DNA from: Peristeroidobacter agariperforans
GTDB taxonomy: Bacteria > Pseudomonadota > Gammaproteobacteria > Steroidobacterales > Steroidobacteraceae
Reading direction: 5' to 3'
Length of the DNA stretch: 64,000 bases
NCBI RefSeq assembly: GCF_004138335.1
Contig: NZ_RYFW01000001.1
Location: 2,563,244 to 2,627,243, forward strand
A program made the translations under genes and the position numbers. Numbering within the stretch: the first letter of the stretch is position 1; every line of letters starts with the position of its first letter. Shown here piece by piece: positions 2,714 to 42,969 of this stretch. Under the pieces are notes generated by a model. The model saw only the letters and a program-made list of their open reading frames with translations, did no database searches and was not told where the DNA came from.

Positions 2714-2877
2714 TGCCATTGCGCCCTCCGGAGGCATTCTTGGCCTCCGGGGGCTAGCATGGGGCTCGCTCCCGGTCAGTACCTAATGACGCACGCCGCC
2801 GCGCGCAGGCACACTTGCATTAGCGGGTGAGATAATTGCAGCAGGCGGGTCGTGCTGCCGAAACATAGGGAAATCTA

Positions 2878-3483: not shown

Positions 3484-3511
3484 CAAGAGCAGGCCATTGA
3501 GGGCAAGAGGT

Positions 3512-4564: not shown

Positions 4565-4576
4565 TCGCCGGAGCGG

Positions 4577-4604
4577 AAAAACGCTGCTTTGCGGCGGCGT
4601 TTTT
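4577..4604 (+). terminator. Rho-independent terminator after FecR copy 1
   Basis: An 11-bp stem (AAAAACGCTGC with GCGGCGTTTTT, one G-T pair) with a six-base loop lies 12 bases after the FecR stop and ends in five T. It separates the first sigma/FecR pair from the orphan FecR gene downstream. Confidence 0.8.
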
Positions 4605-4792
4605 CCTGAACATCGTCACATTCCCCAGGGATGGAGTGCTGCTTACGCCCGGTCTTCTTTTAGGCGCGGGAGACTCCACGGCTTGCTTCACACGTAAGCT
4701 GCAACGACTGGTGAGTCAACGGGCTCTACCAGTCCACGACGGAAGAATTGGCGTCGGTGAGCTGCTGCGGCAGCCAGCGGGGACCGGGATCC

Positions 4793-5818: not shown

Positions 5819-5914
5819 GCGCCGTTCAACTTAATGTGGAGGGGATGAGTCGCCTCCGTAAGCCAGTCAAACAGGCGAGGGATAAATTTCTCTCGGCCAG
5901 CTAGCTCTGACTCA

Positions 5915-7806: not shown

Positions 7807-7966
7807 ACCGATCGCTATCGGTCCGGCATCCGCATAAAGATATATTTTCGATCCGGGTGCCTCCCTAAGTAACAAAGTCACAGCGCGTCGCAACGCGGTA
7901 CGGTAGATTCGTATTCATTCAGCGGCGGGGTCAGTCCCCGGTGTCAAACGGATCTTGCTGGGGAAG

Positions 7967-10900
7967 ATGGTCGCGAAACAGGTCATCGCCGGAGTCGTGG
8001 CGGCCGTTCTTTCCGGCTGTGTGTGGCCCGAGACGGCGCTCGCTCAACACGCCCGCGAACAGGCGCCTGCCGCACCGGAATACGTGCTCGATATTCCACG
8101 CCTGCCCATCATCGAGGCGTTGAAAGACTTCACCACCCAAACCGGCCTGCTGATCAGCTTCTGGCCGGACGCGCAAACCGATCAGGCCCGGCTGGTAGGG
8201 CCGCTGCGGGGCAAGTTCACCGCAGAAGTCGCATTGACCCGGCTGCTGGCAGAGAGCGGATTGACCTATCGGCGGACCAATGAGCGCTCGCTCGTCGTCA
8301 TGGCGCCGTCACTGCTCGGCGCGCCTCGCAATGGCGTGAGCGGCTCCGATCAAGATCGAAGCCGGCTGGCCGAAGGACAGCCTTATCTGCGCAAGCAGCA
8401 GCAACCCCCGGAAGAAAGTTTGACGGTCGTCGGGCGCGCGGGCTCGAATGCGATCATCGGGAAGCCCGACATCGAGCGCGTCGACGAAGTGATCGTCATC
8501 GGTTCGCGCATCGATCGCAATGGCGAAGGGCCCGCGCCGGTGCAGGTGTTCACTCGCCGGATGATCGACGATTTCGGTGCGGCTTCGATTCCGGATGTGC
8601 TGCGCTATTTGCCGCAACAGCCGTTCAATCGCGCCGAGCACTATTACACCAATGGCGCCGAGTACTCGCAGATGCGCGGTATCGGCGTCGACACCACGCT
8701 GATTCTCATCAACGGCCGGCGCGTCGTGCCCACCTCGAACAGCCTGACGCTCAATGCCTTCGATCTGAACAGCATTCCGCTTGCTGCGGTGGAGCGGATC
8801 GAAGTGCTGTCAGATTCGGCCTCTGCGATCTACGGCGCAGACGCCATGGGCGGCGTGATCAATGTGGTGTTGAAGAAAGAGATCCCGCAACCGGTGCTCG
8901 ATGTTCAGTACGGCGGCGCCCGTGGCGGCGCAGATCAGTTGCGTGCCTCGTTCAGCCTGGGCTACCGGACCGAGCGTCTGCGGTCCTCGATGATCTTCGA
9001 TTACTACCGACGTGATTCCCTGTTGGGGGGCGAGCGCGAGCTGTGGCGCGATCAGGACTACACGCGCTATGGCGGCGAGGACTATCGATCGGCGGCCGGC
9101 GTGCCCGGCACCGTGAGATCATTGAGTGGCGCGAACCTGCCAGGACTGTCTTCGTCTTTTGCGATGGTGCCCGAAGGCAGTAGCGGCATCGGGCTCACGC
9201 CACAAGATTTCGTCGCGACCGCTGGCGTTCGCAATCGCACCAGCACGCTGAACGCTTTGTCCATAGTGCCCGCAGCGGAGCAGCGGAGCGTGGCCGTGTT
9301 CGGTGAGTACGATATGACGCCAGATCTGATGGCGTTCGCCGAAGTGCTCTATACCAACCGACGGGTGAATTCACAGGAAGGTCCTTACCCCGTCCAGAGC
9401 GCGCTGGTGCCGGCGCAAAATCCTTTCAATCCATTTGGCCAGCCGGTGTTGGTGGACTTCATTCTGGATGGCCTCGAGCCGCGCCGCTTCGAGCACGATA
9501 TGGATTGGTTACGGGGCGCGTTCGGGCTGCGAGGCTGGCTGAGTTCCAGGTGGCAGTGGGAAGTCGCGGCAATCGCCAGTACCGAGACAGACGATGCTCT
9601 GAGCACTATCGATCTGAGTGCCACGCGCCTCGATGCGGCGCTCGCGGAAACAGATCCGGCGCGTGCCTTGAATCCTTTCGTCGACGGGCCCGCGGGCAGC
9701 CATGAGTTGCTGGCTTCGTTGGTCGATCCAGAACAGAGCAGGCACTTGTCGCGCGGCCGCCAGCTGTCGGCGTTCTTGCAAGGCGAGATGTTCGAATTGC
9801 CGGCGGGCGCCGTGCAAGCGGTGGTGGGCGGCGAATGGCGCGATGAAGAAATGGTCTATGACGACCGCACATTGCCCGTCAATAACGGCCGGGACGTGCG
9901 CGCGGCTTTCACTGAGTTGCGCGTGCCGCTAATCGGGCCCGCGGCATCGAGTCATGGCGACGTCTTGTCCATGACGCTGGCCGCGCGTGTCGACGATTAC
10001 AGCGATTTTGGCAGCTCGCTGAATCCACAATTCGGCTTGCTGTGGCGGCCGGCCGAGGGCGTGTTGTTGCGCGGTTCCTATGGGACGAGCTTTCGCCCGC
10101 CGTCGCTATTCGAGTTGCACGCTCCTCGCACAAGCGTGACGAATGCGTCGGTCCGCGATCCCGCCCGCAACTATGCGTTGAGCCCGGTAACGTTCGTCGC
10201 GGGCGGTAATCCGAATCTTCGGCCGATCGAGGCCGACTCGATGACGACGGGCTTCGTTCTTACGCCGAGCGCGCTGCCTGGTCTGCGGCTGCTCGCAAAC
10301 TATTGGCGGATCCAGACCGAGCATCGCGTGACATTCCTGCATTTCACGTCGCTGCTTGCGAACGAGGAGTCGTTTCGCGACCGCATTCTGCGCGATGCGC
10401 CGACACAGGCCGATATCGCTGCCGGTATGCCGGGCCGGCTGCTGCAGCTGGATATATCGCGAATGAATTTCGGACGGCTCAGCACCAGCGGTATCGACGT
10501 CGAGGCGAGGTACGAGCTGAGCACGCGCTGGGGCGATTTCACGCCGCGATTGTCGGCTACCTGGATCGACGAATTCACGAGCGTCGAGGCGCCCGGGGTG
10601 CCCACCGTCGATCGCGTCGGTATTGCGAATCCGGCGGGATCCATACCACGGTGGCGCGTCGTCGGCAGCTTGGGCTGGAAGCGCAAGGGTGTGGGGTTGT
10701 CCACAACGATGGATTGGTCGCCCGGATACTTGGATGTCGGCACTGCCGGACTGACCGGCCGGCGCCTGCCTGAGCGCGCGATCGTGGATGTGCAGGCGAG
10801 CTTCGCGATCGATGAGTTGCTCGGGCGGAATCTGCTGTGGGACGACTTCAAACTGCAGCTGGGCGTGAAGAATGTATTCGACGAGCTGGCGCCGTTTTCC

Positions 10901-10987
10901 GACATCGGATTCGCGTTGGGCTTCGATTCGTCGCAGGGCGATTTGATCGGCCGCTTCAGTTATCTGCGACTGTCCAAAGGATTCTGA
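7967..10987 (+). CDS. TonB-dependent outer membrane receptor with N-terminal STN signalling domain
   Basis: This protein of about 1006 residues has a signal peptide (about 1-27, ending ETALA), an STN domain (about 45-115, YVLDIPRLPIIEALKDFTTQ) and a TonB-box/plug region. The plug contains DEVIVIGSRI, VERIEVLSDSASAIYGADAM and GGVINVVLKK (about 165-305). A large beta barrel ends in aromatic LRLSKGF. The STN domain is the part that passes a ligand signal to a FecR protein, matching the genes just upstream. I chose ATG 7967 rather than TTG 7955; either leaves the signal peptide intact. The barrel converges on the lasso cyclase gene with 3 bp between stops. The ligand may be the lasso peptide itself or an iron complex; this is inference. 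Confidence 0.92.
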   Translation: MVAKQVIAGVVAAVLSGCVWPETALAQHAREQAPAAPEYVLDIPRLPIIEALKDFTTQTGLLISFWPDAQTDQARLVGPLRGKFTAEVALTRLLAESGLTYRRTNERSLVVMAPSLLGAPRNGVSGSDQDRSRLAEGQPYLRKQQQPPEESLTVVGRAGSNAIIGKPDIERVDEVIVIGSRIDRNGEGPAPVQVFTRRMIDDFGAASIPDVLRYLPQQPFNRAEHYYTNGAEYSQMRGIGVDTTLILINGRRVVPTSNSLTLNAFDLNSIPLAAVERIEVLSDSASAIYGADAMGGVINVVLKKEIPQPVLDVQYGGARGGADQLRASFSLGYRTERLRSSMIFDYYRRDSLLGGERELWRDQDYTRYGGEDYRSAAGVPGTVRSLSGANLPGLSSSFAMVPEGSSGIGLTPQDFVATAGVRNRTSTLNALSIVPAAEQRSVAVFGEYDMTPDLMAFAEVLYTNRRVNSQEGPYPVQSALVPAQNPFNPFGQPVLVDFILDGLEPRRFEHDMDWLRGAFGLRGWLSSRWQWEVAAIASTETDDALSTIDLSATRLDAALAETDPARALNPFVDGPAGSHELLASLVDPEQSRHLSRGRQLSAFLQGEMFELPAGAVQAVVGGEWRDEEMVYDDRTLPVNNGRDVRAAFTELRVPLIGPAASSHGDVLSMTLAARVDDYSDFGSSLNPQFGLLWRPAEGVLLRGSYGTSFRPPSLFELHAPRTSVTNASVRDPARNYALSPVTFVAGGNPNLRPIEADSMTTGFVLTPSALPGLRLLANYWRIQTEHRVTFLHFTSLLANEESFRDRILRDAPTQADIAAGMPGRLLQLDISRMNFGRLSTSGIDVEARYELSTRWGDFTPRLSATWIDEFTSVEAPGVPTVDRVGIANPAGSIPRWRVVGSLGWKRKGVGLSTTMDWSPGYLDVGTAGLTGRRLPERAIVDVQASFAIDELLGRNLLWDDFKLQLGVKNVFDELAPFSDIGFALGFDSSQGDLIGRFSYLRLSKGF

Positions 10988-10990
10988 GCT

Positions 10991-12844
10991 TCACTTCGGT
11001 TGGGATTGCGAATTGCCGAGCCAATGGCGCGCCCACAGCTCCGAATCGAGGTGGCGAAAGATTTCGCCCGGAAACACCGTGTTCTTGGTCGGGCCGGGCG
11101 ACAGCACTTCCTCGAGCAGCGGCCGATCCAGCAGGCCGTTGCGCGCCAGCACCCCATCCAGCAATGTTTCTTTCAGGAACGGCCGCTCGCGTTCGAGCAG
11201 CTGATCGTGAAAGCCCGGCGCGCGATCTTTCCACAGGCGCCGCAGGATGGGTTCGGGCGCTTCCGCCGCGAACGCCAGTCGCGCGAGCCCCCGATCGCGC
11301 CCGCGATGAAAGTGAGTGTGGATGGGAATCCTCAGCAACAGCTCGATTGCCGGCTGCGAGTACAGTGGGGAAACGATCTCGGGTACCGGCGCATCGGCCG
11401 GTGTCGCGACGGAGTAGTAATCAGGCGCCATCATCAACGTTCCGATGCGTCGGATCTTGTCCCAGGGCACGCGGCGCTGCCCTTGGAACCAGGGATGCGA
11501 CACGCTGTAGTGGCCTTCAAAGGCGTGCTTGATCTCGGGACTGACCAACTGGCTCGCAGCGAGGACGCGATCGCGCGGCATGCCGGTGTTCTGTTTGGCC
11601 ATGACCCTGCGGACAGCGCCGGTGAGCACGGTCCAGCTGGACTTTTCCGTGAGCAGCGCGACTTGCGAGGCGAGGCGGAACAGGCCAGGGGTGACGCCAT
11701 GCTGCCGCAAGAACTCCGGCACCGCAAAGACCACCGAGTCGCTGCAAAAGCCCGAATCGCCGCCGTCGCCGCTGAAGATGGCGGTGGCTTGCGTGCGCTC
11801 GATCAGTCCCCGCTCGACCGTGTTGCGCTGGATGAAGCCAAGCAGCGGCGAGGGCTCGGGAGACGGCGGCATGCGCAGCCCGAGGGTCAGGTCCATATCC
11901 AGAGCCTGGAGCGGAAACTCGATGTGCTCGCAGCCGGCGTGCGCGGCGGCGAGCCGCGCCCAGGGACGCTCGTCGGAACGGCCGACGGGGCTGAAATAAG
12001 TGTAGGCGGTGAATCGTTCGGTCGTGCCCTTGAGGCAGCCGGCCATGATCGAGGAGTCGAGGCCACCCGACAATCTCAATAACAAGGAACGGTGCAGGCG
12101 CGCCAGGCCGGCAGAGGCGCCTTTGATCACGCTGTGCATGGCCGGCGCGGCTGTTTGTGGATCTTCGATGAGATCCTCGGCTCCGGTGTAATCGACTGGC
12201 GTCCAGTACAGCTTGCGACTGCTGTGCCAGCCCGAGCTGTCTCGCTCGAACTCGATGCACTCGCCTCGGCGCACCGGGGACGCTTCGTTGAGCGACGATG
12301 CGTCCTCGAAAGTAGTTCCGAGCATCATCAGCGAGCGCAGGAAAGTTTCGTTGACGGTAAAGCGCAGGTGCAGATCGAGGCAGTCCGCGATGCGTGAAAA
12401 GAAAACGCTCACGCCGCGAAATTCGGTGCGCAGACAGGGCAGCAGACCCGTCGGATCTTTCAGCACCCACTTGTAACCACCGGCGGCGTCGTGGCCAAAG
12501 GCGACATAGTCGCCCCAGGCATGATCGATCAGCCATTTGCCGCGACTCTGCACAAAGGATCGGCTCTGCGCCGCGTCGAAGCGGAGCAGTTCGGCCGGCG
12601 CGGGAGAAAACAAATCCCGACTGCGCGCCAGCAGCGAGCCGATGACGAGGCCGCCCTGGTCGCCGACCCGGTGCAGTTGGAGCGCTGGGTCGCGAGCACC
12701 CGCGCAAAACACTTGCATCCCGGCCGCGGAGAATTCCTCTCGCCATGCAGGCGAGAGCTCGCGCAGACGTTTGGCGATCAGCTGAGCTGTTTCTTGTTGT
12801 TGTGGGCTCGAGTCGTCCCACACCATCCCGAGATATCGAAACAT
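10991..12844 (-). CDS. Lasso peptide macrolactam synthetase (asparagine-synthetase-like, C protein)
   Basis: This 617-residue protein resembles asparagine synthetase B and would adenylate the side-chain carboxylate of the core Asp/Glu and close the lasso ring. The ATP pyrophosphatase loop LRLSGGLDSSIMAG lies near residues 257-269. The N-terminal glutaminase-like domain (DYVAFGHDAAGGYKWVLKDP) has no Cys at position 2, as usual for lasso C proteins. The start MFRYLGMVW is typical of the family, and AGGGAG lies 7 bases upstream. A longer in-frame extension to 13204 would overlap the B gene and is rejected. The start lies 11 bases after the B stop, so B and C share a transcript. Confidence 0.93.
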   Translation of the reverse strand: MFRYLGMVWDDSSPQQQETAQLIAKRLRELSPAWREEFSAAGMQVFCAGARDPALQLHRVGDQGGLVIGSLLARSRDLFSPAPAELLRFDAAQSRSFVQSRGKWLIDHAWGDYVAFGHDAAGGYKWVLKDPTGLLPCLRTEFRGVSVFFSRIADCLDLHLRFTVNETFLRSLMMLGTTFEDASSLNEASPVRRGECIEFERDSSGWHSSRKLYWTPVDYTGAEDLIEDPQTAAPAMHSVIKGASAGLARLHRSLLLRLSGGLDSSIMAGCLKGTTERFTAYTYFSPVGRSDERPWARLAAAHAGCEHIEFPLQALDMDLTLGLRMPPSPEPSPLLGFIQRNTVERGLIERTQATAIFSGDGGDSGFCSDSVVFAVPEFLRQHGVTPGLFRLASQVALLTEKSSWTVLTGAVRRVMAKQNTGMPRDRVLAASQLVSPEIKHAFEGHYSVSHPWFQGQRRVPWDKIRRIGTLMMAPDYYSVATPADAPVPEIVSPLYSQPAIELLLRIPIHTHFHRGRDRGLARLAFAAEAPEPILRRLWKDRAPGFHDQLLERERPFLKETLLDGVLARNGLLDRPLLEEVLSPGPTKNTVFPGEIFRHLDSELWARHWLGNSQSQPK

Positions 12845-31479: not shown

Positions 31480-31851
31480 TCAGAGCACTCGGGCGATGGT
31501 CGCGAGCAACTGATCGGGATTGAACGGCTTGACGATCCAGCCGGTCGCGCCGGCCTGCTTGCCACGCTGCTTGGTTTCCGGGCCGGACTCGGTGGTCAGC
31601 ACCAGCATCGGCGTGAACTTGTAGCTGTCCAGGCCGCGCAGTTCCTTGACCAGCGTGATGCCATCCATTCGGGGCATGTTGACGTCGGTGAGCACCAGGT
31701 CGACGCCGCGAGTCTTCGCGAGGTCCAGGGCTTCCACGCCGTCGGCAGCCTGAACCACCTCGTAGCCGGCCCCTTCCAAGGTATAGCGGACCATCTGCCG
31801 CATGGACGCGGAATCGTCCACGGCGAGAATTGACTTCGAGGCTCCAGACAT
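31480..31851 (-). CDS. CheY-like single-domain response regulator
   Basis: A 123-residue receiver domain with no output domain. Acidic pocket residues are in ILAVDDSASMRQ; the phosphorylated Asp is in VDLVLTDVNMPRMDG; the switch Thr is in MLVLTTESG; the conserved Lys is in WIVKPFNPDQL. It should bind the flagellar or pilus motor when phosphorylated by CheA. ATG 31851 gives the normal length. A CheZ-like gene follows in the same transcript and a strong terminator closes the unit. Confidence 0.93.
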   Translation of the reverse strand: MSGASKSILAVDDSASMRQMVRYTLEGAGYEVVQAADGVEALDLAKTRGVDLVLTDVNMPRMDGITLVKELRGLDSYKFTPMLVLTTESGPETKQRGKQAGATGWIVKPFNPDQLLATIARVL

Positions 31852-31992
31852 TACACGCGCTCCAATTACACAGAATCTGGCCGTCACAGGGGAAGTGACT
31901 GCATCGTTTGCCGTATTAACGGCGCGTGTTGCGGCGAGTTGAGTAGGGGGTTCCCGGAATGAGTGGCCGGTCGCAATCCGGTAGTGCGGCCG

Positions 31993-32760
31993 TTACCGCA
32001 CCAGCTCGGCTGTGAGGGGCGGTGTGGGCGCCGAGTGCTTTTTCCGGTTCAGCGGGATGTCGTACGTCACAGTCGCGCCATAGCGTTCCGGCGCGTGCGG
32101 GTCGTGACGACGCTTGTCGAACACCAGCAGCCGCGTGCCGAGCTGAAAGCTCTCCTTCAGATCGTGCGTGATCATGAAGATGGTCATGCGGTTCGCCTGC
32201 CACAGGCGCAGGATGATTTCATGCATGTCGGCCGTGATTCCTGGATCTAAAGCGCCGAACGGCTCGTCGAGCAGCAGGATTTTCGGCTCGCGAATCACCG
32301 ACTGCGCAATGGACAGTCGTTGCTGCATGCCGCCGGAGAGCTGCGAGGGATATTTGTCGCGTGCGGTGTGCAAGCCGATCGCTTCGAGCAGGCTCTCGGC
32401 CTTCTCCGCCGCCTCGCGCCGCCTCGCGCCGAACAGCTTGCCCAGCCAGCGCGAGCCGGAGAACTCCAAGCCGAGCATGAGATTGTCGAGCACGCTCAAG
32501 TGCGGGAACAGCGAGTAGCGCTGGAACACGATGCCGCGGTCCGGGCCCGGCTCGGCCGGCACCGGTTGGCCATCGATCAGCAGCTGACCCTTCGTGGGTT
32601 GCTCGACTCCGAGCAGCATGCGCAGGAACGTGGTCTTGCCACATCCCGACGCGCCGATGATCGTGACGAACTCGCGATCGGCGACGTGCAGGTTCAGATT
32701 CTCCAGCACGACCTGGTCGCCATATTCCTTCCACAGATGTTTGACGGTGACGCAGGCCAT
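31993..32760 (-). CDS. ABC transporter ATP-binding protein (guanidine/urea-carboxylase-associated importer)
   Basis: A 255-residue ATPase of the nitrate/taurine importer family. Walker A is GASGCGKTTFLRMLLG, the Q-loop lies in GIVFQRYSLFP, the signature is LSGGMQQRLSIAQS, Walker B is ILLLDEPFGALDP and the H-loop is MITHDL. A C-terminal extension after about residue 225 is rich in His, Arg and Pro. It follows the permease gene by 2 bp and powers import of the ligand bound by the protein encoded at 33631. Induction through the guanidine-I riboswitch upstream suggests guanidine as substrate. Confidence 0.93.
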   Translation of the reverse strand: MACVTVKHLWKEYGDQVVLENLNLHVADREFVTIIGASGCGKTTFLRMLLGVEQPTKGQLLIDGQPVPAEPGPDRGIVFQRYSLFPHLSVLDNLMLGLEFSGSRWLGKLFGARRREAAEKAESLLEAIGLHTARDKYPSQLSGGMQQRLSIAQSVIREPKILLLDEPFGALDPGITADMHEIILRLWQANRMTIFMITHDLKESFQLGTRLLVFDKRRHDPHAPERYGATVTYDIPLNRKKHSAPTPPLTAELVR

Positions 32761-32762
32761 GC

Positions 32763-33575
32763 TCAGCGGCTCTCCGCCCAGGGAAAGAATCTCGCCCGCG
32801 CCAGTCGTAACAGCCAATCCATGGTGTAGGCGAGCAGCGTGATCCAGATGACGTACGGCAGGATCACGTCCATTGCCATGTAACGGCGCACGAGGAAGAT
32901 GCGATAGCCGAGTCCCTCGGTGGATGCGATCGCTTCGGCGGCGATCAGGAACAACCAGGCCGAGCCGAGTGTCAGCCTCAATGCGTCGATCAGCCGCGGC
33001 CACAGTTGGGGCAGGATGACGCGCGTCGACAGCAGCCAGCTCGATGCACCCAGCGTTTGCGCTTTGATGAGCTGCTCCTTCGGCAGCTCGCCGGCGCGCA
33101 ATGAGACATCGCGAACGATGCAGGGGGCGACGCCGAACACGATCAATGCGATCTTCGCGACCTCGCCCAGGCCGAGGACGATAAACAGAATGGGCAGAAT
33201 GGCCAGCGGTGGAATCATCGCTAACGCGGCCACGAAAGGACCCAATAACGAACGCACGACCGGCAGGGCGCCGATGGCGAGACCGCCGACGATGCCGATG
33301 AATGCGCTGATGGCGAGCGCAATCAGCAGGCGCTTCATGCTCGCGCCCGTATCCAACCACCACAGTACTTCACCGCTGCGTCTGTCTTCCTCGACGGCAT
33401 AGCTCTTCAACGTATCGACGAAGGCGCTGGGCGCCGGCAGCAGTTTGTCGTCGGGGTTCTCGGCGAGTCGGGCGGCCGAGCCAAATAGATAAGCGGCGAT
33501 CAGAATCAAGAACGGCAACGCGCCGAGAGCCAGCGCGCTACCGCGAGAAGGATAGAGGTTTACCAGCCGAGGCAT
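32763..33575 (-). CDS. ABC transporter permease (guanidine/urea-carboxylase-associated importer)
   Basis: A 270-residue inner membrane permease of the SsuC/TauC type with about six helices. The cytoplasmic EAA-like loop is KEQLIKAQTLGASSWLLSTR, followed by the ILPQLWPRLIDALRLTLGSA helix. It sits between the binding protein gene (55-bp gap) and the ATPase gene (2-bp gap), and all three are behind the riboswitch. Confidence 0.92.
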   Translation of the reverse strand: MPRLVNLYPSRGSALALGALPFLILIAAYLFGSAARLAENPDDKLLPAPSAFVDTLKSYAVEEDRRSGEVLWWLDTGASMKRLLIALAISAFIGIVGGLAIGALPVVRSLLGPFVAALAMIPPLAILPILFIVLGLGEVAKIALIVFGVAPCIVRDVSLRAGELPKEQLIKAQTLGASSWLLSTRVILPQLWPRLIDALRLTLGSAWLFLIAAEAIASTEGLGYRIFLVRRYMAMDVILPYVIWITLLAYTMDWLLRLARARFFPWAESR

Positions 33576-33630
33576 GAGTTCGGCTCGCCGTGCTTCGCGA
33601 TCGTGTTCGACCGAAGGCCGCTGTGATTTA

Positions 33631-34710
33631 TCACAGCGCCCTGTCCGCAGCCATCTTCATGTAGCTCGCGTCAAATCTCATCTTCACGCTCTTCGCATTG
33701 CCGAGCGTCTTGCCGCCGGGGAATTCGATGCCGACCGCGTCGACCGTCTTCGCGCCTTCGCCGAGCAGGCCGTGATCGAACGAGAACTTGCGCACCAGGT
33801 CCATCGTCTTGATCACCGTCGGGCTGGTTGCGAACGTGTGCGCTTCCGCCGGTGTCCAGAACATCTTCGTGGTCGCAAGCTGGCTGTTGAATCCCGCGAG
33901 GTCGGTGCCGGATGCCTTGGCCATGTGAGCCAGCGCCTTCGGGTCCTTCGCGACCATGAGCTGCAATGTTTCATACCACGCGCCGACCAACGCCTTCGCC
34001 AGTTTCGGGTTGTCCTTGAGCGTTGCGGTGTTCACGACCATCAGGTCGATGATCTCGCCCGGGATCTTGCTGGAGTCGAACACCAGCTGCGCATCCTTCG
34101 CCGCGAGGATCTCGCTGAGCTGCGGCTTCCAGGTCACAGTGGCCTTCGTGTCTGCGGCGGCGTATGCGCCGACGATGTCGGCATCGGATGTGTTGACGAC
34201 CTTGATGTCACGTTCCTGCATGCCCGCCGTTTGCAGCGCCCGGGCCAGCAGATAGTGCGACACCGACAGTTCGACCAGGTTCACCGGCAGGCCTTTGATG
34301 TTGGCCAGTGTCTTGCCTTTGCCTTTCAATACCACGCCGTCGTTGCCGTTGGAGAAGTCGCCGACGATGAGCGCGGTGGAATCAACGCCGCCCGCGGACG
34401 GAATGGTGAGCATGTCCATGTTGGTCATCACGCAGCCGTCGAACGCGCCGGCGGTGTACTGATTGATGGACTCGACGTAGTCGTTGATCTGCGTGAGCTG
34501 AATGGCTATGCCGTACCTGTCCGCCCACTTCTTCAAGATGCCGCTCTCGGCGGCATAGTCCCACGGCATCCAGCCTACGTAGATGCTCCAGGCGATTTTG
34601 AATGATTTCTTTTCGGCCGCGTGCGCCGCCGGCGTCAGCGCCAGCAGCGTCAGGGTCAGCAGCGCGACCCGGAGCGTGCGAACAGCAAGCGAATGAGCGT
34701 GGGAAAGCAT
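33631..34710 (-). CDS. Periplasmic substrate-binding protein of the riboswitch-controlled ABC importer
   Basis: This 359-residue protein starts at ATG 34710 with GGAGA 7 bases upstream. A Sec signal peptide ends AAHA (about residue 31). The mature part has the NMT1/SsuA-like fold: FKIAWSIYVGWMPWDYAAES, GAFDGCVMTNMDMLTIPSAG, VNLVELSVSHYLLARALQ. It matches the binding protein that accompanies urea carboxylase gene sets in many Proteobacteria. With a guanidine-I riboswitch in its leader, guanidine or a related compound is the likely ligand. It is first in a three-gene operon. Confidence 0.92.
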   Translation of the reverse strand: MLSHAHSLAVRTLRVALLTLTLLALTPAAHAAEKKSFKIAWSIYVGWMPWDYAAESGILKKWADRYGIAIQLTQINDYVESINQYTAGAFDGCVMTNMDMLTIPSAGGVDSTALIVGDFSNGNDGVVLKGKGKTLANIKGLPVNLVELSVSHYLLARALQTAGMQERDIKVVNTSDADIVGAYAAADTKATVTWKPQLSEILAAKDAQLVFDSSKIPGEIIDLMVVNTATLKDNPKLAKALVGAWYETLQLMVAKDPKALAHMAKASGTDLAGFNSQLATTKMFWTPAEAHTFATSPTVIKTMDLVRKFSFDHGLLGEGAKTVDAVGIEFPGGKTLGNAKSVKMRFDASYMKMAADRAL

Positions 34711-34779
34711 TCGGCGTCTCCTCTTATTTGACAGGTCACTCGAACCGAGTGCCGGAAGACGCATCCCGCCAGAATAAAT

Positions 34780-34811
34780 GGGGAGGCCGCCTGCCAGCGC
34801 GCAAACCTCCC
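34780..34811 (-). terminator. Candidate expression platform of the guanidine-I riboswitch
   Basis: On the minus strand GGGAGG, the last bases of the aptamer, can pair with CCTCCC at 34781-34786, followed by ATTTATTCT. Pairing would disrupt the 3' side of the aptamer, so ligand binding should prevent this terminator-like hairpin and turn expression on. The loop is long (19 bases) and the T tract is imperfect, hence moderate confidence. Confidence 0.5.
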
Positions 34812-34896
34812 GGGCTTTTATCCCGCCGTGTATCCAGCCTCGTCACTGGACTGCCTCTCTCGGACCAGCATCGCGAGCGACCGGAACCCTAGAGGC
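34806..34896 (-). ncRNA. Guanidine-I (ykkC) riboswitch aptamer
   Basis: The minus strand shows the conserved blocks of the ykkC class in order: CTAGGGTTCCGG, CTGGTCCGAGAGAGGC, ACACGGC and GGGATAAAAGCCCGGGAGG, with matching spacing and helices. It senses free guanidine. It lies about 95 bp before the binding protein gene of the ABC importer and therefore controls the importer operon. The enzymes diverge on the other strand. The whole gap between the divergent operons runs from 34711 to 35143; outside the riboswitch I see no second aptamer and no clear promoter in it. Confidence 0.93.
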
Positions 34897-35143
34897 AAAT
34901 TGCAATGCTGAAGTTTGCAAATGACGTGCCGGTCGTCGGTCACTGCATTTGACGCGACATCCCTGGTGCGAGTCGGTTGCGAATGCATTCAAATGGCGCG
35001 CCGAATTGTCATAGTCGCACTCAAGCAGTGCGTTCGAGTCGATGGAGAGCTGCGCCGGAAAGTGAATGTGGCGCTGAAATGCACGAGCAGCGCGCTTGGT
35101 ACGCTCCTTGCTCTGCCCCTTCCAAGTCAACGCCGACTTGTTC

Positions 35144-35881
35144 ATGGGTGTGGGAATGGCCGAAGGCGCGCCGTATTGGATGCTTTGGGACGAACTCGTC
35201 GTCGGCGGGGCCCATTGGTCCGGGCTGTTGCGGCGGGGTACGACGCTGCGGCTCGCCGACGTGGCCGGCGGCGGCAATGTCTCGGCGCTGTTCTATAATT
35301 ATGAGGACCGGCTCGAGCGTTACAACATGGCCGACACGCTCAAGGCCCAGCACACCGCGTTCCTGACCCGCGCCTGCGTGTGCTACTCCGACATGGGCCG
35401 AGTGATGTGCTCCATTACCGACGACACCTGCGGCTGGCACGACACCTTATGCGGTGTGACGAACGCTTCCATGGTCAGCTCGAAGTACGGCGATGCTCGC
35501 TATCAGGAACGTCGCAACGAGTATCACCGCAACGCTTACGACGGTTTTCTCAATGAGTTGGGCAAGTACGGCCTGGGCAAGCGCGACCTGGCTGCCAACA
35601 TCAATTTCTTCAGCAAAGTGACGGCCGATGACGCGGGCAATCTCAAGTTCCATGTGGGGAACTCGGTTGCGGGCAGCTACATCGATCTGCGCTTCGAGAT
35701 GAACACCTTGGTGGTGCTGGCTGCCTGTCAGCATCCGCTGGATCCCGCGACCGAGTATCAGCCCAAGGAGGTGCGGCTGACGACGTGGCACTCGCGTCCG
35801 GCTCCGCGTAATGATCCTTGTCGCACGCGCTGCCCCGAGAATGAGCGCGGCTTTCGCAACACCGAAGTGTGGTACCGCTGA
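35144..35881 (+). CDS. DUF1989 protein UAAP1 type, carboxyguanidine deiminase subunit
   Basis: A 245-residue urea-carboxylase-associated protein. Conserved features include [39 protein letters not shown], the metal-site-like [16 protein letters not shown], and [20 protein letters not shown]. With its partner downstream it should hydrolyse carboxyguanidine to allophanate and ammonia. The start is uncertain: homology begins near 35159, ATG 35144 and ATG 35156 are both possible, and TTG 35096 is unlikely. It overlaps the next gene by one base (TGATG). A Cys-rich tail ([13 protein letters not shown]) follows the core domain. Confidence 0.85.
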
Positions 35882-36531
35882 TGCCACTCAAAGAAAGCTC
35901 ATTGGATGCGGCGAAGGCGGTGCGCCGGGAAGTCATTCCCGCCGGCGAGCCCTGGATGGGCAGCCTCAGGAAAGGGCAGCACTTCCGCATCGTCGATCTC
36001 GAAGGCAATCAAGCCGTCGACACGTTGTTCTATAGCAGCGCCTCGCTCGACGAGCGTTACAGCGCTCAGGACACGATTCGCGCCCAGGGAAACATTTATC
36101 TCACGGCGGGTACGCAGCTGGTGTCCAACGAAGGCAATACGATGCTGACGATCGTTGCCGATACGTGCGGCCGTCACGATACGCTGGGTGGGGCGTGCTC
36201 GGCGGAAAGCAACACGGTTCGGTACGCAATTGAGAAGCGGCACATGCACAGCTGTCGCGACAACTTCCTGCTGGCGCTCACACACTGGGGCGCGAAGTAT
36301 CACCGCGACATCGGCAAGCGCGATCTCGCGAGCAACATCAACTTCTTCATGAACGTGCCGGTCACGCCGCAAGGCAAGCTGACGTTCGCCGATGGCATCT
36401 CGGCTGCCGGCCGCTATGTCGAGATGCGCGCCGAGATGGATGTGACGGTGTTGATCTCCAACTGTCCGCAGTTGAACAACCCGTGCAACGGCTATAACCC
36501 GACGCCGGTCGAAGTGCTGGTCTGGGACTGA
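35881..36531 (+). CDS. DUF1989 protein UAAP2 type, carboxyguanidine deiminase subunit
   Basis: A 216-residue paralogue of the preceding protein. Family features are [60 protein letters not shown] and [16 protein letters not shown]. The ATG at 35881 overlaps the stop of UAAP1 by one base, so the two subunits are made together, consistent with a heteromeric deiminase. The following gene is the carboxylase, separated by a 114-bp stretch that carries a guanidine-II-type riboswitch. Confidence 0.88.
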
Positions 36532-36555
36532 CGGCAGGCGACGCCCACGTCGCCA

Positions 36556-36603
36556 CTTGCGGGACGACCCGCGAGTTTCATGACAACGCCGGGACGACCC
36601 GGC
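36556..36603 (+). ncRNA. Guanidine-II (mini-ykkC) riboswitch, two ACGA hairpins
   Basis: Two GC-rich stem-loops, each with GGGACGACCC at the tip, lie 12 bases apart. P1 spans 36556-36575 (GCGGG-ACGA-CCCGC, extended by three more pairs including one wobble). P2 spans 36588-36603 (GCCGGG-ACGA-CCCGGC). Paired hairpins with ACGR loops are the defining feature of the guanidine-II class, which binds guanidine through a kissing-loop dimer. It starts 24 bp after the UAAP2 stop and ends 42 bp before the carboxylase ATG, so it should tune the carboxylase alone. The call is by eye; a covariance search would settle it. Confidence 0.85.
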
Positions 36604-36611
36604 ACAGGGCA

Positions 36612-36628
36612 GCCCGGCGCCGCCGGGC
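36612..36628 (+). promoter_or_regulatory. Hairpin after the guanidine-II riboswitch
   Basis: GCCCGGC and GCCGGGC form a perfect 7-bp stem with a three-base loop between the riboswitch and the carboxylase ribosome binding site (GAAGG, 36635-36639). There is no T tract. It might compete with P2 and so couple guanidine binding to translation; this is inference. Confidence 0.4.
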
Positions 36629-36645
36629 GGGTCGAAGGCGTTATC

Positions 36646-39600
36646 ATGTTCGACAAAGTGCTGATCGCGAATCGTGGCGCGATTGCTTGCAGGATCGTTC
36701 GTACCCTGCGGCGGCTGGGCATTCGCTCGGTGGCCATCTACTCCGAGGCAGATCGTCATTCGATGCACGTTGCGATGGCCGACGAAGCCATTCACATCGG
36801 CGCGGCGCCGGCTGCCGAAAGTTATCTCCAGCAGGATCGCATCATCACCGCCGCTCGCGAGTCCGGCGCTCAGGCGATCCACCCGGGCTACGGATTCTTG
36901 AGCGAGAACGCGGCGTTCGCGGAAAAGTGTGAAGCCGCGGGGATCGTTTTCGTCGGGCCGAGCGCCCAGCAGATGCGAAGCTTCGGACTCAAGCACACGG
37001 CCCGCGAGCTGGCTCAAGCGCAGGAAGTGCCGCTGCTGCCCGGTAGTGGGTTGTTGAGGAACGCCGAACACGCTGTTCTGGAGGCTGCTGCTATCGGCTA
37101 TCCCGTGATGTTGAAGAGCACTGCGGGCGGCGGTGGCATCGGCATGCAGCTGTGTCGTAGTGCCGAGGAGTTGGCTGCCGCCTATCACACGGTAGAGCGC
37201 TTGGCCGCAAGCAACTTCAGTCAGGGCGGCGTGTTCATCGAGAAGTTCGTCGAGCAGGCGCGCCATATCGAAGTGCAGATCTTCGGCGACGGTTGCGGCA
37301 ATGTCGTGGCGCTCGGCGAAAGAGATTGCTCGGTACAGCGACGCAATCAGAAGGTCATCGAAGAAGCGCCCGCGCCGCGGCTCGACGATCGGACACGACT
37401 GCACCTATTTGCGTGCGCCGAACGCCTCGGTCGGAGCGTCGGATACAAATCGGCCGGCACCGTCGAATTCGTGTACGACGACGCGAGTGGCCAGTTCTAC
37501 TTTCTCGAGGTGAATACGCGCTTGCAGGTCGAGCACGGCGTCACCGAGCAGGTCACTGGAGTCGATCTCGTTGAATGGATGCTGGGGGTCGCCGCCGGTG
37601 AGCCGCCGGACCTGATTGGCGATCGGGTGCAATCGCGCGGTCATTCCATCCAGGTTCGCGTGTATGCGGAGGATCCGTCGCATCAGTTTCGTCCGTCGAG
37701 TGGCCTGCTGTCACATGTGCGATGGCCGGACGGCGTCAGGGTCGATCATTGGGTCGAGACGGGCACGGAAGTGCCGGCGCACTACGATCCTATGCTCGCG
37801 AAGATCATTTCTCACGGGTCGGATCGCGAGGAGGCGCTGCAGAAGCTGCAGGATGCGCTAAAGGCTGCGCAGTTGTATGGCATCGAGACGAACCTCGCGT
37901 ACCTGCGGCACGTGATTGCAGATGAGGTGTTTCGCGAGGGGCGGCAGACGACGCGCTTTCTCGCTCGATTCGAATATCGGCCCACGACGGTGGAAGTCAT
38001 TCAGGCGGGCACGCACACGAGCATTCAAGAGTTTCCGGGTCGCGTGGGTTATTGGGATATCGGCGTGCCGCCCTCGGGGCCCATGGATGACCTCGCGTTT
38101 CGGCTCGCGAATGAGCTGGTTGGGAATACCGGATCTTCTGCGGGCCTGGAACTGACGGTCAGCGGACCGACGCTGAAGTTCAACGCAGCGGCGGTGATTG
38201 CGCTAGGTGGCGCGCAGATGCAGGCGGAGTTGAATGGCGAGCCCCTGCCGTACTGGACCGCAGTCAACGTCGCTGCCGGTAGCGTGTTGAAGATGCGCTC
38301 CATTCAAGGCGCTGGGCAGCGCACGTATCTTGCCGTGCGTGGCGGATTCGATGTGCCGACCTATATGGGCAGCCGGGCCACCTTCACGCTCGGCCAGTTC
38401 GGCGGCCACGCCGGTCGCGCGCTCCGCGCCGGCGATACGTTACGGCTGCACGAGAACGTTGAGTTGACGGCGGTTGGTGCTTCGTTACCACCGTCGCGCA
38501 TACCCGCCTATTCGAACGCGTGGACGATCGACGTGATGTCCGGTCCGCATGGGGCGCCTGACTTCTTTACCGATCAGGACATTCAGACCTTCTTCGCCGC
38601 CGAATGGGAAGTGCACTACAACTCCAGCCGCACCGGCGTGCGCCTGATTGGGCCCAGGCCCACTTGGGCACGGGCTGATGGCGGCGAGGCGGGGCTGCAT
38701 CCTTCGAACATTCACGACAACGCGTATGCTATCGGCGCAATCGACTTCACCGGCGACATGCCAGTGATCCTCGGACCGGACGGGCCGAGCCTCGGCGGAT
38801 TTGTCTGTCCGGCGACGATCATCAGCAGCGAGTTGTGGAAGGTTGGTCAGCTGCGGCCCGGCGACAAGGTCAGATTCAGATGCGTGGGCTCGACCACGCC
38901 TGTTCTTTACACTCACCCTGGGTCGACCACCGGAATACCCGCTGTCTGCTACCGCCAGGCTGGCGACAACTACTTGCTGGTCGAGTATGGCCCGCTCGCA
39001 CTCGATCTCGAGCTGCGCTTCCGGGTGCATGCCTTGATGGACTGGCTGCAGCGGCAGCGAATTCGCGGGGTGCTCGAACTGACGCCGGGGATCCGCTCAC
39101 TGCAGGTCCACTTCGACAGTCGCGTCATCTCACAGCGCGCGTTGTCGGACGTTTTGCTTTGCGCAGAAGATGAACTGCCCGCGGTCGACGACATCGAGGT
39201 GCCGAGCCGCATCGTTCACCTGCCACTCTCCTGGGACGATCCTGCAACGCGCGTCGCCATCGACAAATATGTGCAGTCGGTGAGAAAGGACGCACCCTGG
39301 TGTCCGAGCAACATCGAGTTCATTCGTCGCGTGAATGGGCTCGAATCCATCGATGACGTTCGGCGCATCGTTTTCGATGCCAGCTATCTCGTGATGGGGC
39401 TGGGCGATGTTTATCTCGGTGCGCCAGTCGCGACCCCGCTCGACCCCCGGCATCGTCTCGTCACGACCAAATACAACCCGGCGCGTACCTGGACGCCGGA
39501 GAACGCCGTCGGCATCGGCGGCGCTTACTTGTGCGTGTATGGGATGGAGGGGCCGGGCGGATATCAGTTCGTGGGGCGCACGGTGCAGATGTGGAATCGT

Positions 39601-40155
39601 CACCGGCAAACCCGGGATTTCAAGGACGGCAAACAATGGCTGCTGCGCTTCTTCGATCAACTGCGGTTCTATCCGGTGTCGGCGGACGAGCTGTTACAGA
39701 TGCGGGAGGACTTCCCTCGCGGCAAGTTCCAGCTGCGCGTGGAAGAGAGCATGCTGAGGTTGCGCGAGTATCGGCAGTTCCTGGCCGACAACCACGACTC
39801 GATCGGTGCGTTCAAAGCTCGACAGCAAGCGGCGTTTGAAGCCGAAAGAGAGCGCTGGCGCGCGAGCGGCCAGCTCACCTTCGACACAGAACCTGCCGTG
39901 ATCAACGAATCCAGCGCACAGGCCGTGCCTGCCGGCTGCGAGGCGATCACCTCGCCGGTCACCGGCAGCGTTTGGAAACAATCGCTCGCCGTGGGCCAAC
40001 GGATCGATGCTGGCGATGAGTTGCTGGTCATCGAAGCCATGAAAATGGAGATTCCGATCATCGCCGATCAATCAGGCGAGATCGTCGAAATCCGCAGCGC
40101 CGCCGGCCGCGCGGTCTCGGCAGGGGAGGTGCTCGTTGCGATCAAGCCGATCTGA
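36646..40155 (+). CDS. Biotin-dependent urea/guanidine carboxylase
   Basis: A 1169-residue multidomain enzyme. The biotin carboxylase domain (about 1-450) starts [20 protein letters not shown] and holds [15 protein letters not shown] and [14 protein letters not shown]. KipA/KipI-like carboxyltransferase domains follow (about 470-1060, [20 protein letters not shown]). The biotinyl domain ends the protein, with Lys in [11 protein letters not shown]. It carboxylates urea or guanidine using ATP and bicarbonate. The two riboswitches and the deiminase-type partners point to guanidine. ATG 36646 has GAAGG upstream and is the family start. No allophanate hydrolase domain is fused, and none is encoded next to it. 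Confidence 0.93.
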
Positions 40156-40387
40156 GCTGGGGCATTGCTCGAGCTCATCCGACATAACGCAGGCTTAGCT
40201 GAACGAGCACGCTGAACAGCTCGCATCCGTACGAGCTCCCCGTCCGAAACTGCCAACTGTTTGGCAGAGCTGCAAAGTGTGACGCAGTACAGTCCTGCTG
40301 CAGACCAGACATAAGGAAGGGCTTCGCGCGCTTCCGCAGGTTCGGTGGAAGGGCGCAAGACAGTGGCTTCAACGTCAAGGGACTTCG

Positions 40388-41254
40388 ATGGATGTTTCTG
40401 AGACCATTCTGGCGGCCATGATCGGTGCACTGGCAACCGTTGCCACCGCCTTGTTTCAGCTGTTCAGCAGCTTCAAACAGCAACGTAGCAGCAAGGTCGA
40501 CGTGCGGCCGAAGAAGCGCTCCGCGCTGCGGTCGGTTCTGGCGGTACTCGCGTTGATGGTTGCCTCCGGGGCCGGCGGATTTCTCTACTCCGAGTTCATC
40601 AAAGAGCGCGCGTCTGAAGATATGCGCGCCATGCGTGGCGAGCTGAAGGAGCTGCGCTCATTGATTGCAGCCGAGCGCGAGGCCGCGCGCACTGAAGCGT
40701 CAGCTGCACTCGAGGCTCCTGCTATGGATCACAGTGCAGTGACGTTGCCGGCGTCGATGGACAGCGTCGCCGACAGTGTGGAGTCTGTTGTCTATGTTCC
40801 TGCCTGTCGCGCAGGTGGTGTGACCAACGCTTGCAACGAGCAGGAAGCTCAACGCATTGCTCTGTGTGGAACGATACCGGCGTACGCTCGTGTCGATCGC
40901 ATCCAGTTGTTCGCGCAGCCGGATGCTATGCAGTACCCCTGGGACAAACATCAGGTTACGTTCGAGCAGGATCTCGGTGGCGCACGCTTCACTGGCAACT
41001 CGTTCGAGTATGCGCAGGGCGAGGATCTGAAGGCCGTGTGCGTGAATTTCATGCAGTGGAGCAGCGAGCATCCGCATATCGCGCGGATCGTCGTCGAGTT
41101 CGGCTTCGGGAATGCGCCGACTCCGATCGAGCCTGCGCCGATGACCGTGCCAGTGCAGATGACGCCGACGCAGGTGCCGGCGGTTATTGCCGCTGAGTCG
41201 TTGCCGGCAGTGGCGACGCCTGCGGCGTTCACGGGCGCCGGTGCCGCTCAGTGA
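40388..41254 (+). CDS. Membrane protein of unknown function with coiled coil and Cys-containing C-terminal domain
   Basis: A 288-residue protein with two hydrophobic segments (about 8-25 and 56-74), a short coiled coil (SEDMRAMRGELKELRSLIAA, about 78-100), a beta-rich domain with four Cys (VPACRAGGVTNACNEQEAQR, IALCGT, AVCVNFMQWSS) and a Pro/Ala/Thr-rich tail. I do not recognise the family. The start ATG 40388 lies at the beginning of the first hydrophobic segment. It is separated by 232 bp from the carboxylase and is probably not part of that operon. Confidence 0.65.
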   Translation: MDVSETILAAMIGALATVATALFQLFSSFKQQRSSKVDVRPKKRSALRSVLAVLALMVASGAGGFLYSEFIKERASEDMRAMRGELKELRSLIAAEREAARTEASAALEAPAMDHSAVTLPASMDSVADSVESVVYVPACRAGGVTNACNEQEAQRIALCGTIPAYARVDRIQLFAQPDAMQYPWDKHQVTFEQDLGGARFTGNSFEYAQGEDLKAVCVNFMQWSSEHPHIARIVVEFGFGNAPTPIEPAPMTVPVQMTPTQVPAVIAAESLPAVATPAAFTGAGAAQ

Positions 41255-41337
41255 TACTTTTTTAACCGGAAAGTTCACCCTGGCGATATTTGTGGTATCT
41301 CTTTAGATACTACATGAGCATCGTTCGGGGGACGGTC

Positions 41338-42969
41338 ATGTTCGGACAGATGATGGACCGGCCGCTGCTGATCAGCGGCATCGCGCGCCATGCAGAATTG
41401 CAGCACCCTCGGCGGGAGATCGTTTCGATCACCGCCGACAATCCCCGCCACCGGTATACATATCGGGATGCGTTCGCGCGCTCCCGGAAGCTCGCCAATG
41501 CGCTGAGTCGACTCGGCCTGCAGCAGGGCGATCGGGTGGCGACGCTGGCCTGGAACGATTATCGGCACTTCGAGATCTACTACGCCGTGTCCGGCTCGGG
41601 CTTCGTCTGTCACACCATCAACCCGCGCCTGTTCGAAGATCAGATCGTCTTCATCGTCAATCATGCCGAGGACCGCTGGTTGTTCCTCGATCCTGTGTTC
41701 GTGCCGCTGGTCGAGAAGCTGCAGTCGCGGCTGCCCAAGCTCGAAGGCTGTATCGTCATGACCGACGATGCCCACATGCCGCAGACTCAGCTGCCTCGCG
41801 CTCGCAGTTATGAGTCTTTCATCGCCGCCGAGAGCGACAGCTTCGAGTGGCCCGAGTTCGACGAGCGGACTGCGAGCTCGCTGTGCTACACGTCGGGCAC
41901 GACCGGCGATCCGAAAGGCGTGCTCTACAGTCATCGCTCGACCGTTCTGCATTGCTACGCCTCGGCGATGCCGGATGCGATGTCGCTATCGGCGCACGAG
42001 GTGGTGATGCCGGTCGTGCCGATGTTTCATGTGAATGCGTGGGGCCTGCCGTATTCGTGCGCGATGGTGGGAGCCAAGCTGGTTTTTCCGGGCGCGAAGA
42101 TGGGCGATGCGGAGACGTTGCAATCGCTCATCGAAGCAGAGCAAGTGACCTTCTCGGCCGGCGTGCCGACGGTGTGGCAGGGGCTGATTGCGTACCTGGA
42201 GAAGACGGGCAAGCGCATCGATAGCCTCACTCATGTATTGAGCGGCGGCTCGGCGGTGCCGCTCGCGCTGATCGATCAACTGAGAGAACGCCACGAGGTG
42301 GAAGTCGTGCAGGCCTGGGGCATGACCGAGACCAGTCCCATCGGCACGATTCGCTCGCTGTCGCCCGAGGCGAGCAGCTTGCCCGAAGAGCGTCGCGCTG
42401 CCTTGCGGGCTCGACAAGGCCGCACCGTGTTCGGCGTCGAGCTCAAAGTGGCGGGCGACGATGGCAAGGAAGTGCCACGCGACGGCAAGACCTTCGGCGC
42501 GCTGAAGGTGCGCGGCTGGTGGGTTGCCGGCGGCTACTACAAGCGCAGCGGCGACGATGTGTTCGAGAGCGATGGCTGGTTCAACACCGGCGATGTCGCG
42601 ACCATTTGCCCATTGGGCTATCTGCAGATCACGGATCGCACCAAGGACGTGATCAAGTCGGGCGGTGAGTGGATCAGCTCGATCGAGCTGGAGAATCTCG
42701 CGGTCGCGCATCCGGCCGTGGCGCAGGCGGCCGCCATCGCGATTCCACATCCGAAGTGGCAGGAGCGGCCGTTGCTGGTCGCGGTGCTCAAGCCGGGGGC
42801 GTCGGTGACTGCGGAAGAGCTCTTGCAGTTCTTCGCGGGCAAGGTCGCGAAGTGGTGCATCCCGGATGACGTGGTGTTCGTCGAGAAGCTGCCGCTGACG
42901 GCGACGGGCAAGCTCAGCAAGTTACAACTGCGACAGCAGTTCGTGGGTTACCAGTTTCCAACGGCATGA
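41338..42969 (+). CDS. Medium/long-chain acyl-CoA synthetase (AlkK-like)
   Basis: A 543-residue ANL-superfamily enzyme that activates fatty acids to acyl-CoA via acyl-AMP. Motifs: LCYTSGTTGDPKGVLYSHRS (P-loop), QAWGMTETSP, DGWFNTGDVATI and the C-terminal ITDRTKDVIKSGGEWISS; the catalytic Lys is in LTATGKLSK. I chose ATG 41338, with GGGGA 6 bases upstream, over upstream in-frame starts. A terminator hairpin overlaps its stop and belongs mainly to the converging OmpA gene. Confidence 0.92.
   Translation: MFGQMMDRPLLISGIARHAELQHPRREIVSITADNPRHRYTYRDAFARSRKLANALSRLGLQQGDRVATLAWNDYRHFEIYYAVSGSGFVCHTINPRLFEDQIVFIVNHAEDRWLFLDPVFVPLVEKLQSRLPKLEGCIVMTDDAHMPQTQLPRARSYESFIAAESDSFEWPEFDERTASSLCYTSGTTGDPKGVLYSHRSTVLHCYASAMPDAMSLSAHEVVMPVVPMFHVNAWGLPYSCAMVGAKLVFPGAKMGDAETLQSLIEAEQVTFSAGVPTVWQGLIAYLEKTGKRIDSLTHVLSGGSAVPLALIDQLRERHEVEVVQAWGMTETSPIGTIRSLSPEASSLPEERRAALRARQGRTVFGVELKVAGDDGKEVPRDGKTFGALKVRGWWVAGGYYKRSGDDVFESDGWFNTGDVATICPLGYLQITDRTKDVIKSGGEWISSIELENLAVAHPAVAQAAAIAIPHPKWQERPLLVAVLKPGASVTAEELLQFFAGKVAKWCIPDDVVFVEKLPLTATGKLSKLQLRQQFVGYQFPTA

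Follow-up and report, generated by a model that had tools for sequence, protein, structure and literature searches.

The locus described here raises the question of why one set of guanidine genes should carry two riboswitch classes for the same ligand, and of what starts the transcription on which these riboswitches would act. It lies in Peristeroidobacter agariperforans, in a 64,000-nucleotide stretch of the genome, which is referred to below as the window. The features of the locus are collected in Table 1.

Table 1. Predicted features of the guanidine locus, with positions in the window
Feature	Position	Strand	Evidence
ABC importer ATP-binding protein	31993..32760	minus	ORF, ATG start; Pfam ABC_tran 5e-33
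ABC importer permease	32763..33575	minus	Pfam BPD_transp_1 1.5e-16
ABC importer substrate-binding protein	33631..34710	minus	NCBIfam TIGR03427, 541 bits, cut-off 333.9
Guanidine-I riboswitch aptamer	34903-34805	minus	Rfam RF00442, 85.3 bits; heads importer operon
Candidate sigma54-type -24/-12 promoter, importer operon, CCGGCACG-N4-TTGCA	34916..34932	minus	12/13 positions
NtrC-type palindrome GCACT-N5-AGTGC, GCACTCAAGCAGTGC	35017..35031		exact match; between the two promoters
Candidate sigma54-type promoter, cgdAB-gca, TTGGTACG-N4-TTGCT	35096..35112	plus	12/13 positions
cgdA, carboxyguanidine deiminase subunit (UAAP1, DUF1989)	35144..35881	plus	TIGR03425, 351.6 bits, cut-off 205.95
cgdB, carboxyguanidine deiminase subunit (UAAP2, DUF1989)	35881..36531	plus	TIGR03424, 345.4 bits, cut-off 284.7
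Guanidine-II riboswitch aptamer, two hairpins	36556-36602	plus	Rfam RF01068, 43.6 bits; between cgdB and gca
Candidate expression platform; the linker, CATGACAACGCC, is a near-complement of GGCGTTATCATG at gca start	36573..36650	plus	duplex -16.0 kcal/mol
gca, guanidine carboxylase, biotin-dependent, urea-carboxylase family	36646..40155	plus	TIGR02712, 1891 bits

Genes of the locus

Counted from the guanidine-I aptamer, the minus strand carries in this order the genes for the substrate-binding protein, the permease and the ATPase of an ABC importer. The model matched by the substrate-binding protein is named putative urea ABC transporter SBP, and as the start of this protein we picked by eye an ATG ahead of a signal-like N terminus. 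The plus strand carries cgdA, cgdB and gca. The starts of the UAAP1 and UAAP2 proteins, which we take to be CgdA and CgdB, were also selected by eye, in the case of cgdB at an ATG overlapping the cgdA stop codon, and in the case of cgdA at an ATG chosen because two relatives have a one-base gap just upstream. Concerning gca, whose product has 1169 residues, the ATG at 36646 is most likely the start, as the listed start of the open reading frame at 36580 would cross the second guanidine-II hairpin. The closest named relative is Steroidobacter agaridevorans, with a carboxylase that is 91% identical.

Allophanate hydrolase, the enzyme of the last step, was rejected as part of the locus, as its above-cut-off match is situated on another contig, C15 (L096, 8926-10734). 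The gene likewise lies away from the guanidine locus in the genomes of S. agaridevorans (L010) and Peristeroidobacter soli (L044). No guanidine-I or guanidine-II match was found on contig C15, and the best sigma54-like score in the 300 bases upstream of the gene was 10.

Guanidine or urea as the substrate

As stated in the available part of PMC11410670, Asp in the column of K. lactis position 1330 marks guanidine carboxylases off from urea carboxylases. Residue 700 of the gca product, which aligns to the column of K. lactis Asn1330, is Asp. The column was readable in 58 loci, with Asp in 29 and Asn in 29. Of the 29 Asp loci, 27 have a cgd gene next to the carboxylase gene, and 26 of them have both subunits; the locus with one subunit (L042) is cut by a contig end, and the two without (L051 and L053) are on contigs that begin within the carboxylase gene. 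Among the 29 Asn loci, the sole one with an adjoining cgd gene was that of a Hyphomicrobium MAG (L014, carboxylase 8001-11594), which has the urea-type residue despite cgdAB, guanidine-I and guanidine-II.

Judged from the residue at the specificity column, a carboxylase of the guanidine type is supported, in agreement with an earlier note on this DNA that had named guanidine rather than urea as the substrate. The family names still read urea carboxylase and urea ABC transporter, and these, together with the combination seen in L014, would fit a locus in which carboxylase and importer act on urea, with riboswitches that were inherited or that answer guanidine as a by-product. Taking into account the Asp, the presence of cgdAB in the operon and the two guanidine aptamers, we regard such a urea locus as highly improbable, and rejected it on the basis of the Asp and cgdAB.

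Two predicted aptamers and their possible outputs

Both aptamers were matched by cmscan over the full model, guanidine-I at model positions 1-107 (gathering threshold 63 bits, E 8.4e-14) and guanidine-II at positions 1-48 (gathering threshold 32 bits, E 2.3e-5), the latter with two ACGA-loop hairpins. As each is full length and above its cut-off, an origin by chance or artefact was rejected for both. The scan bears out the earlier note, which had read a guanidine-I aptamer at the head of the minus-strand importer operon and a guanidine-II element in the divergent enzyme operon, with outer coordinates that were correct to within one base. Lying between cgdB and the carboxylase gene, the guanidine-II element is internal to the enzyme operon and not at its head. 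At gathering thresholds, no Rfam match beyond these two was found in the whole 64-kb window, and a permissive scan (E up to 1) of 31500-41500 returned the same two elements, with no third riboswitch and none before cgdA. The P. agariperforans genome (7.65 Mb) contains one guanidine-I match and two guanidine-II matches. The second guanidine-II element (L001, G000:C10:1146901-1146947) is located upstream of a gene for a small SMR exporter (SugE model, 151.6 bits, cut-off 126) and ends about 33 bases before it.

The linker between the two guanidine-II hairpins is a near-complement of the gca ribosome site and start codon, and the free energy of the predicted duplex was compared with that of shuffled letters (P 0.02). 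With both hairpins imposed, the unpaired probability of the gca AUG rose from 0.10 in the free RNA to 0.58. The Shine-Dalgarno sequence was not freed, its unpaired probability going from 0.47 to 0.32, which gives a mixed picture for this element. On the guanidine-I side, an alternative stem with the 3' end of the aptamer was predicted at -22.6 kcal/mol, a value that has no control run for comparison, and a strict terminator scan of 34650-36700 found none. It is plausible that the output of guanidine-I is transcriptional and that of guanidine-II translational.

Pairing of the two classes and the divergent layout

We examined how often the two classes occur together in a sample of 398 Pseudomonadota genomes (the phylum sample), from which P. 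agariperforans was left out and which was not selected by carboxylase, and in 50 genomes of carboxylase relatives, one genome being in both samples with identical coordinates (G210 and G299). The carboxylase-relative counts draw on 50 of the 79 loci, taken by genome; those omitted are L051, L053, L056, L061, L062, L063, L065 and L067, together with L068-L088, in which the match is confined to the biotin-carboxylase part. The riboswitch scans of these samples and of an order sample (196 genomes) used stricter filters, with the loss of some weak matches, and matches below the Rfam cut-off were retained in every count.

In the phylum sample, guanidine-I was present in 42 genomes, guanidine-II in 83 and both in 31, and a guanidine-II element lay within 10 kb of guanidine-I in 27 of the 42 guanidine-I genomes. 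Both classes were found in 26 of the 50 carboxylase-relative genomes, in all 26 within 10 kb. What is rarer is a gap below 2 kb, seen in one of the 27 phylum-sample pairs (G277, 1824 bases). With these counts, and with the pairing in print, we abandoned the view that the pairing is a rarity, and with it the earlier note's statement that the two classes together are unusual; the two-class pairing is already known.

On the other hand, the layout of the window is less common. Within each of the 27 phylum-sample pairs, the two closest elements share a strand, with guanidine-I upstream and guanidine-II before cgdA (6 pairs) or before gca (21 pairs). A divergent layout was found in the window, in S. 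agaridevorans L010, in P. soli L044 and in another genome of the same family (G037/L089). Opposite-strand nearest pairs above cut-off occurred, among the genomes sampled, only within Steroidobacteraceae; one more opposite nearest pair, in G218 of the 50 genomes, involves a guanidine-II match below cut-off. In the order sample, only P. agariperforans and G037 have both classes. The divergent layout is thus rarer than the pairing itself. In the window it places guanidine-I at the importer, guanidine-II at gca and neither at cgdAB. The earlier proposal that two folds govern uptake and degradation therefore applies to the importer and the carboxylase, but not to cgdAB, before which no riboswitch was found. 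A divergent importer is also present in L055 (Verrucomicrobiaceae MAG, 524-8944), but there guanidine-I heads the cgdAB-gca side; this genome gave no guanidine-II match, and its best sigma54-like score was 7.

Candidate sigma54 promoters and an NtrC-type box between the two operons

The consensus of sigma54 promoters is YTGGCACG-N4-TTGCW with GG-N10-GC, and that of NtrC binding sites is GCACY-N5-RGTGC. Sigma54-like sites were scored over 13 positions with GG and GC fixed, the consensus having been applied after the sites in the window were noticed. Only two sites with a score of 12 are present in the 64-kb window, and they face outward in one intergenic region. Scores of at least 10 on both strands arose in a fraction of 0.002 of 2000 simulations with the intergenic composition. 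The minus-strand site starts 29 bases before the guanidine-I aptamer and ends a dozen bases from it. One exact NtrC-type palindrome was observed in the window against 0.53 expected by chance, so that its placement counts for more than its presence.

The region was compared among the window, L010 and L044. All three agree at 17 of 17 bases of the plus-strand promoter, at 17 of 19 of the NtrC-type box taken with two flanking bases on each side, and at 23 of 62 in the stretch between the two. The minus-strand promoter (12 of 17) is not clearly better conserved than the intergenic region as a whole (149 of 240). Upstream of guanidine-I in L089, no exact NtrC-type box was found. Genes for NtrC and RpoN are present above cut-off in the P. 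agariperforans genome. The spacing pattern of NtrC box and sigma54 site occurs at three places in this genome, two of which are the locus itself by construction of the pattern; the open reading frames near the third have, by eye, no nitrogen role.

Motif matches of this kind fall short of proof, and we considered the possibility that the promoters are constitutive, the riboswitches do all of the regulation and the resemblances to sigma54 and NtrC sites are non-functional. A sigma70-type scan gave one 9/12 site (0.3 expected), at 35325-35298 of the minus strand; it lies within cgdA, points towards the importer and would suit such guanidine-only control. The rarity of both-strand sigma54 sites in the simulations argues against it, as do the counts from other genomes that follow.

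Sigma54-type sites ahead of guanidine leaders in other genomes

The phylum sample allowed scoring of 57 of 57 guanidine-I and 95 of 96 guanidine-II elements outside the P. agariperforans genome, the remaining guanidine-II element, in G368, having fewer than 17 bases upstream before the contig end. Counted per element, with several genomes per genus counted separately, a sigma54-like site of at least 11/13 lay upstream of 43 of the 57 guanidine-I elements; of the 51 elements located before importer or cgd genes, 42 had one. None of the 95 guanidine-II elements had such a site, and 1.1% of simulated guanidine-I upstream regions did. The distance from the start of the site to the aptamer is 26 to 100 bases in these 43 cases. 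Fourteen of the 57 guanidine-I elements lack the promoter; it is present in 20 of 31 genera and 14 of 20 families, with six families having none, including f71 at 0/4.

Of the 95 guanidine-II elements, 62 precede SMR exporters, 21 precede gca and 7 precede cgdA, and 5 have no query gene behind them. Since many guanidine-II elements lie inside operons, where one would expect no promoter, the exporter leaders make a fairer comparison; the exporters in this class were assigned by a tblastn match to the SugE-type SMR protein of P. agariperforans, and are thus putative guanidine exporters by similarity. In the carboxylase-relative genomes, a site of at least 11 was present within 300 bases upstream of 50 of 55 guanidine-I and 0 of 48 guanidine-II elements. 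An initial tally of guanidine-I leaders, in which 18 of 22 reached at least 11, is almost wholly included in the 50 of 55. Random 300-base pieces gave a background of 1.6%, taken from 21 loci of 14.7 to 19.6 kb with the true sites included.

The loci also included some with further guanidine-I elements. In seven loci from genomes labelled Pseudomonas (L108, L109, L116, L117, L118, L120 and L127), three guanidine-I and one guanidine-II element are found within about 9 kb, and each of the 21 guanidine-I elements has its own sigma54-like site of at least 11. In L128, L156, L150 (hit at 3985), L155 (hit at 5001) and L226, guanidine-I elements are preceded by sigma54-like sites scoring 11 to 13, and no query gene lies in the first 1200 bases downstream.

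NtrC-type boxes matching at least 9/10 positions were found upstream of 21 of the 43 guanidine-I promoters as against 4.0% of simulations. The corresponding numbers were 2 of 14 for guanidine-I elements without a promoter and 1 of 49 for exporter leaders, a count that covers 49 leaders without the 13 scored later. Guanidine-only control is difficult to reconcile with sigma54-like sites at 43 of 57 guanidine-I and 0 of 95 guanidine-II elements, with the enrichment of NtrC-type boxes at guanidine-I promoters and the lack of such enrichment at exporter leaders, or with the NtrC dependence of a locus of the same gene type reported in the part of PMC5491218 at hand. The searched text of PMC12508155 and PMC12186494 is silent on NtrC and RpoN, which counts in favour of guanidine-only control. 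On balance, we judge it unlikely.

A further alternative is that a sigma54 enhancer-binding protein other than NtrC acts at the shared box. P. agariperforans has 15 more matches that score above 160 bits with the NtrC model but stay under its cut-off, and 22 of the 43 guanidine-I promoters are without a strong NtrC-type box. The box in the window, however, is an exact NtrC-type palindrome kept in three genomes, and NtrC is encoded; we consider another regulator at this site improbable.

A proposed two-key circuit

Our preferred reading, which we hold to be probable on the basis of the motifs and their placement, is that the guanidine-assimilation locus is under two-key control, in which nitrogen shortage starts transcription and guanidine releases expression. 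Under nitrogen shortage, NtrC at the shared box would activate the sigma54 promoters on either side, from which the importer genes and cgdAB-gca would be transcribed in opposite directions. The importer mRNA would open almost immediately with the guanidine-I aptamer, and the importer would be expressed only with guanidine, probably through control of a terminator. The carboxylase, catalysing the first and ATP-costly step, would be held back by guanidine-II ahead of its start codon until translation is released. Being upstream of guanidine-II and behind no riboswitch that we found, cgdAB should answer nitrogen alone. In the usual layout, with guanidine-I at the head of a collinear operon, both switches would act in series on gca; in the divergent layout they would act in parallel, one on uptake and one on the carboxylase.

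The promoter pattern sorts the scored leaders, those of guanidine-I at assimilation genes being mostly behind sigma54-type sites and those of guanidine-II at exporters not. We lean, with somewhat less confidence, towards a general form of the two-key reading. In Pseudomonadota, guanidine-I assimilation operons would as a rule have NtrC-activated sigma54 promoters, a gate that requires both nitrogen shortage and guanidine, and exporter guanidine-II leaders would not. Steroidobacteraceae would have split this arrangement into a divergent version, with one NtrC box for both sides, the two classes guarding uptake and carboxylase separately, and cgdAB under nitrogen control only. If the promoters are functional, guanidine uptake joins the nitrogen-scavenging programme and guanidine export stays outside it; a full response would need both nitrogen hunger and guanidine as food.

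Comparison with known systems

Genes of the urea-carboxylase type have been placed in the NtrC/sigma54 nitrogen regulon before, by promoter prediction or by mutant data. In the sections of PMC12316311 at hand, sigma54 control is predicted for 102 COG3665 genes of the alpha, beta and gamma classes, with 59% named urea carboxylase. In a Burkholderia cenocepacia ntrC mutant under nitrogen limitation, RNA-seq showed a urea carboxylase gene down by 6.0 log2 and zero reads for a urea-carboxylase-related binding protein and a related aminomethyltransferase gene, and the authors assign these NtrC-dependent genes to urea use (PMC5491218, available portion). As far as the text of these two sources was at hand, the predictions and the mutant data provide independent support for a dependence on NtrC in loci with genes of this kind, and neither source draws a link to guanidine riboswitches. 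Our literature search found no report joining NtrC or sigma54 to guanidine riboswitches, and earlier primary papers may say more; the papers on guanidine riboswitches and guanidine metabolism that it returned gave zero mentions of NtrC, and those with both guanidine and NtrC were, by title, on other subjects.

Concerning the riboswitches, the window resembles two described arrangements. In Raoultella terrigena, Erwinia rhapontici and Klebsiella michiganensis, according to the searched text of PMC12186494, in which NtrC and RpoN are not mentioned, importer and deaminase genes are under guanidine-I and are followed by carboxylase and allophanate hydrolase genes under guanidine-II. This division, guanidine-I for the importer and guanidine-II for the carboxylase, is shared by the window. 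These enterobacteria differ in that the deaminase gene is grouped with the importer under guanidine-I, the carboxylase genes coming immediately downstream.

Vreelandella boliviensis, as described in the consulted portions of PMC12508155, has guanidine-I where its operon begins and guanidine-II in the gap from cgdB to gca; the apparent KD values for guanidine were 44 and 93 micromolar. The authors propose transcriptional and translational action and leave the reason for two sensors of one ligand to further study; the main text has zero occurrences of NtrC or RpoN. The window shares with this system both classes in one guanidine carboxylase locus, the position of guanidine-II between cgdB and gca, and an ABC importer. 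In V. boliviensis, guanidine-I heads the entire operon, which includes atzF and methylguanidine genes, whereas in the window the importer is divergent, no guanidine-I precedes cgdAB-gca and the allophanate hydrolase gene lies on a different contig. What is added to the known pairing is likely, as far as sequence can tell, the sigma54/NtrC context together with the divergent, parallel layout, which parts the two sensors physically, so that a single native locus lets each be studied with the target that belongs to it.
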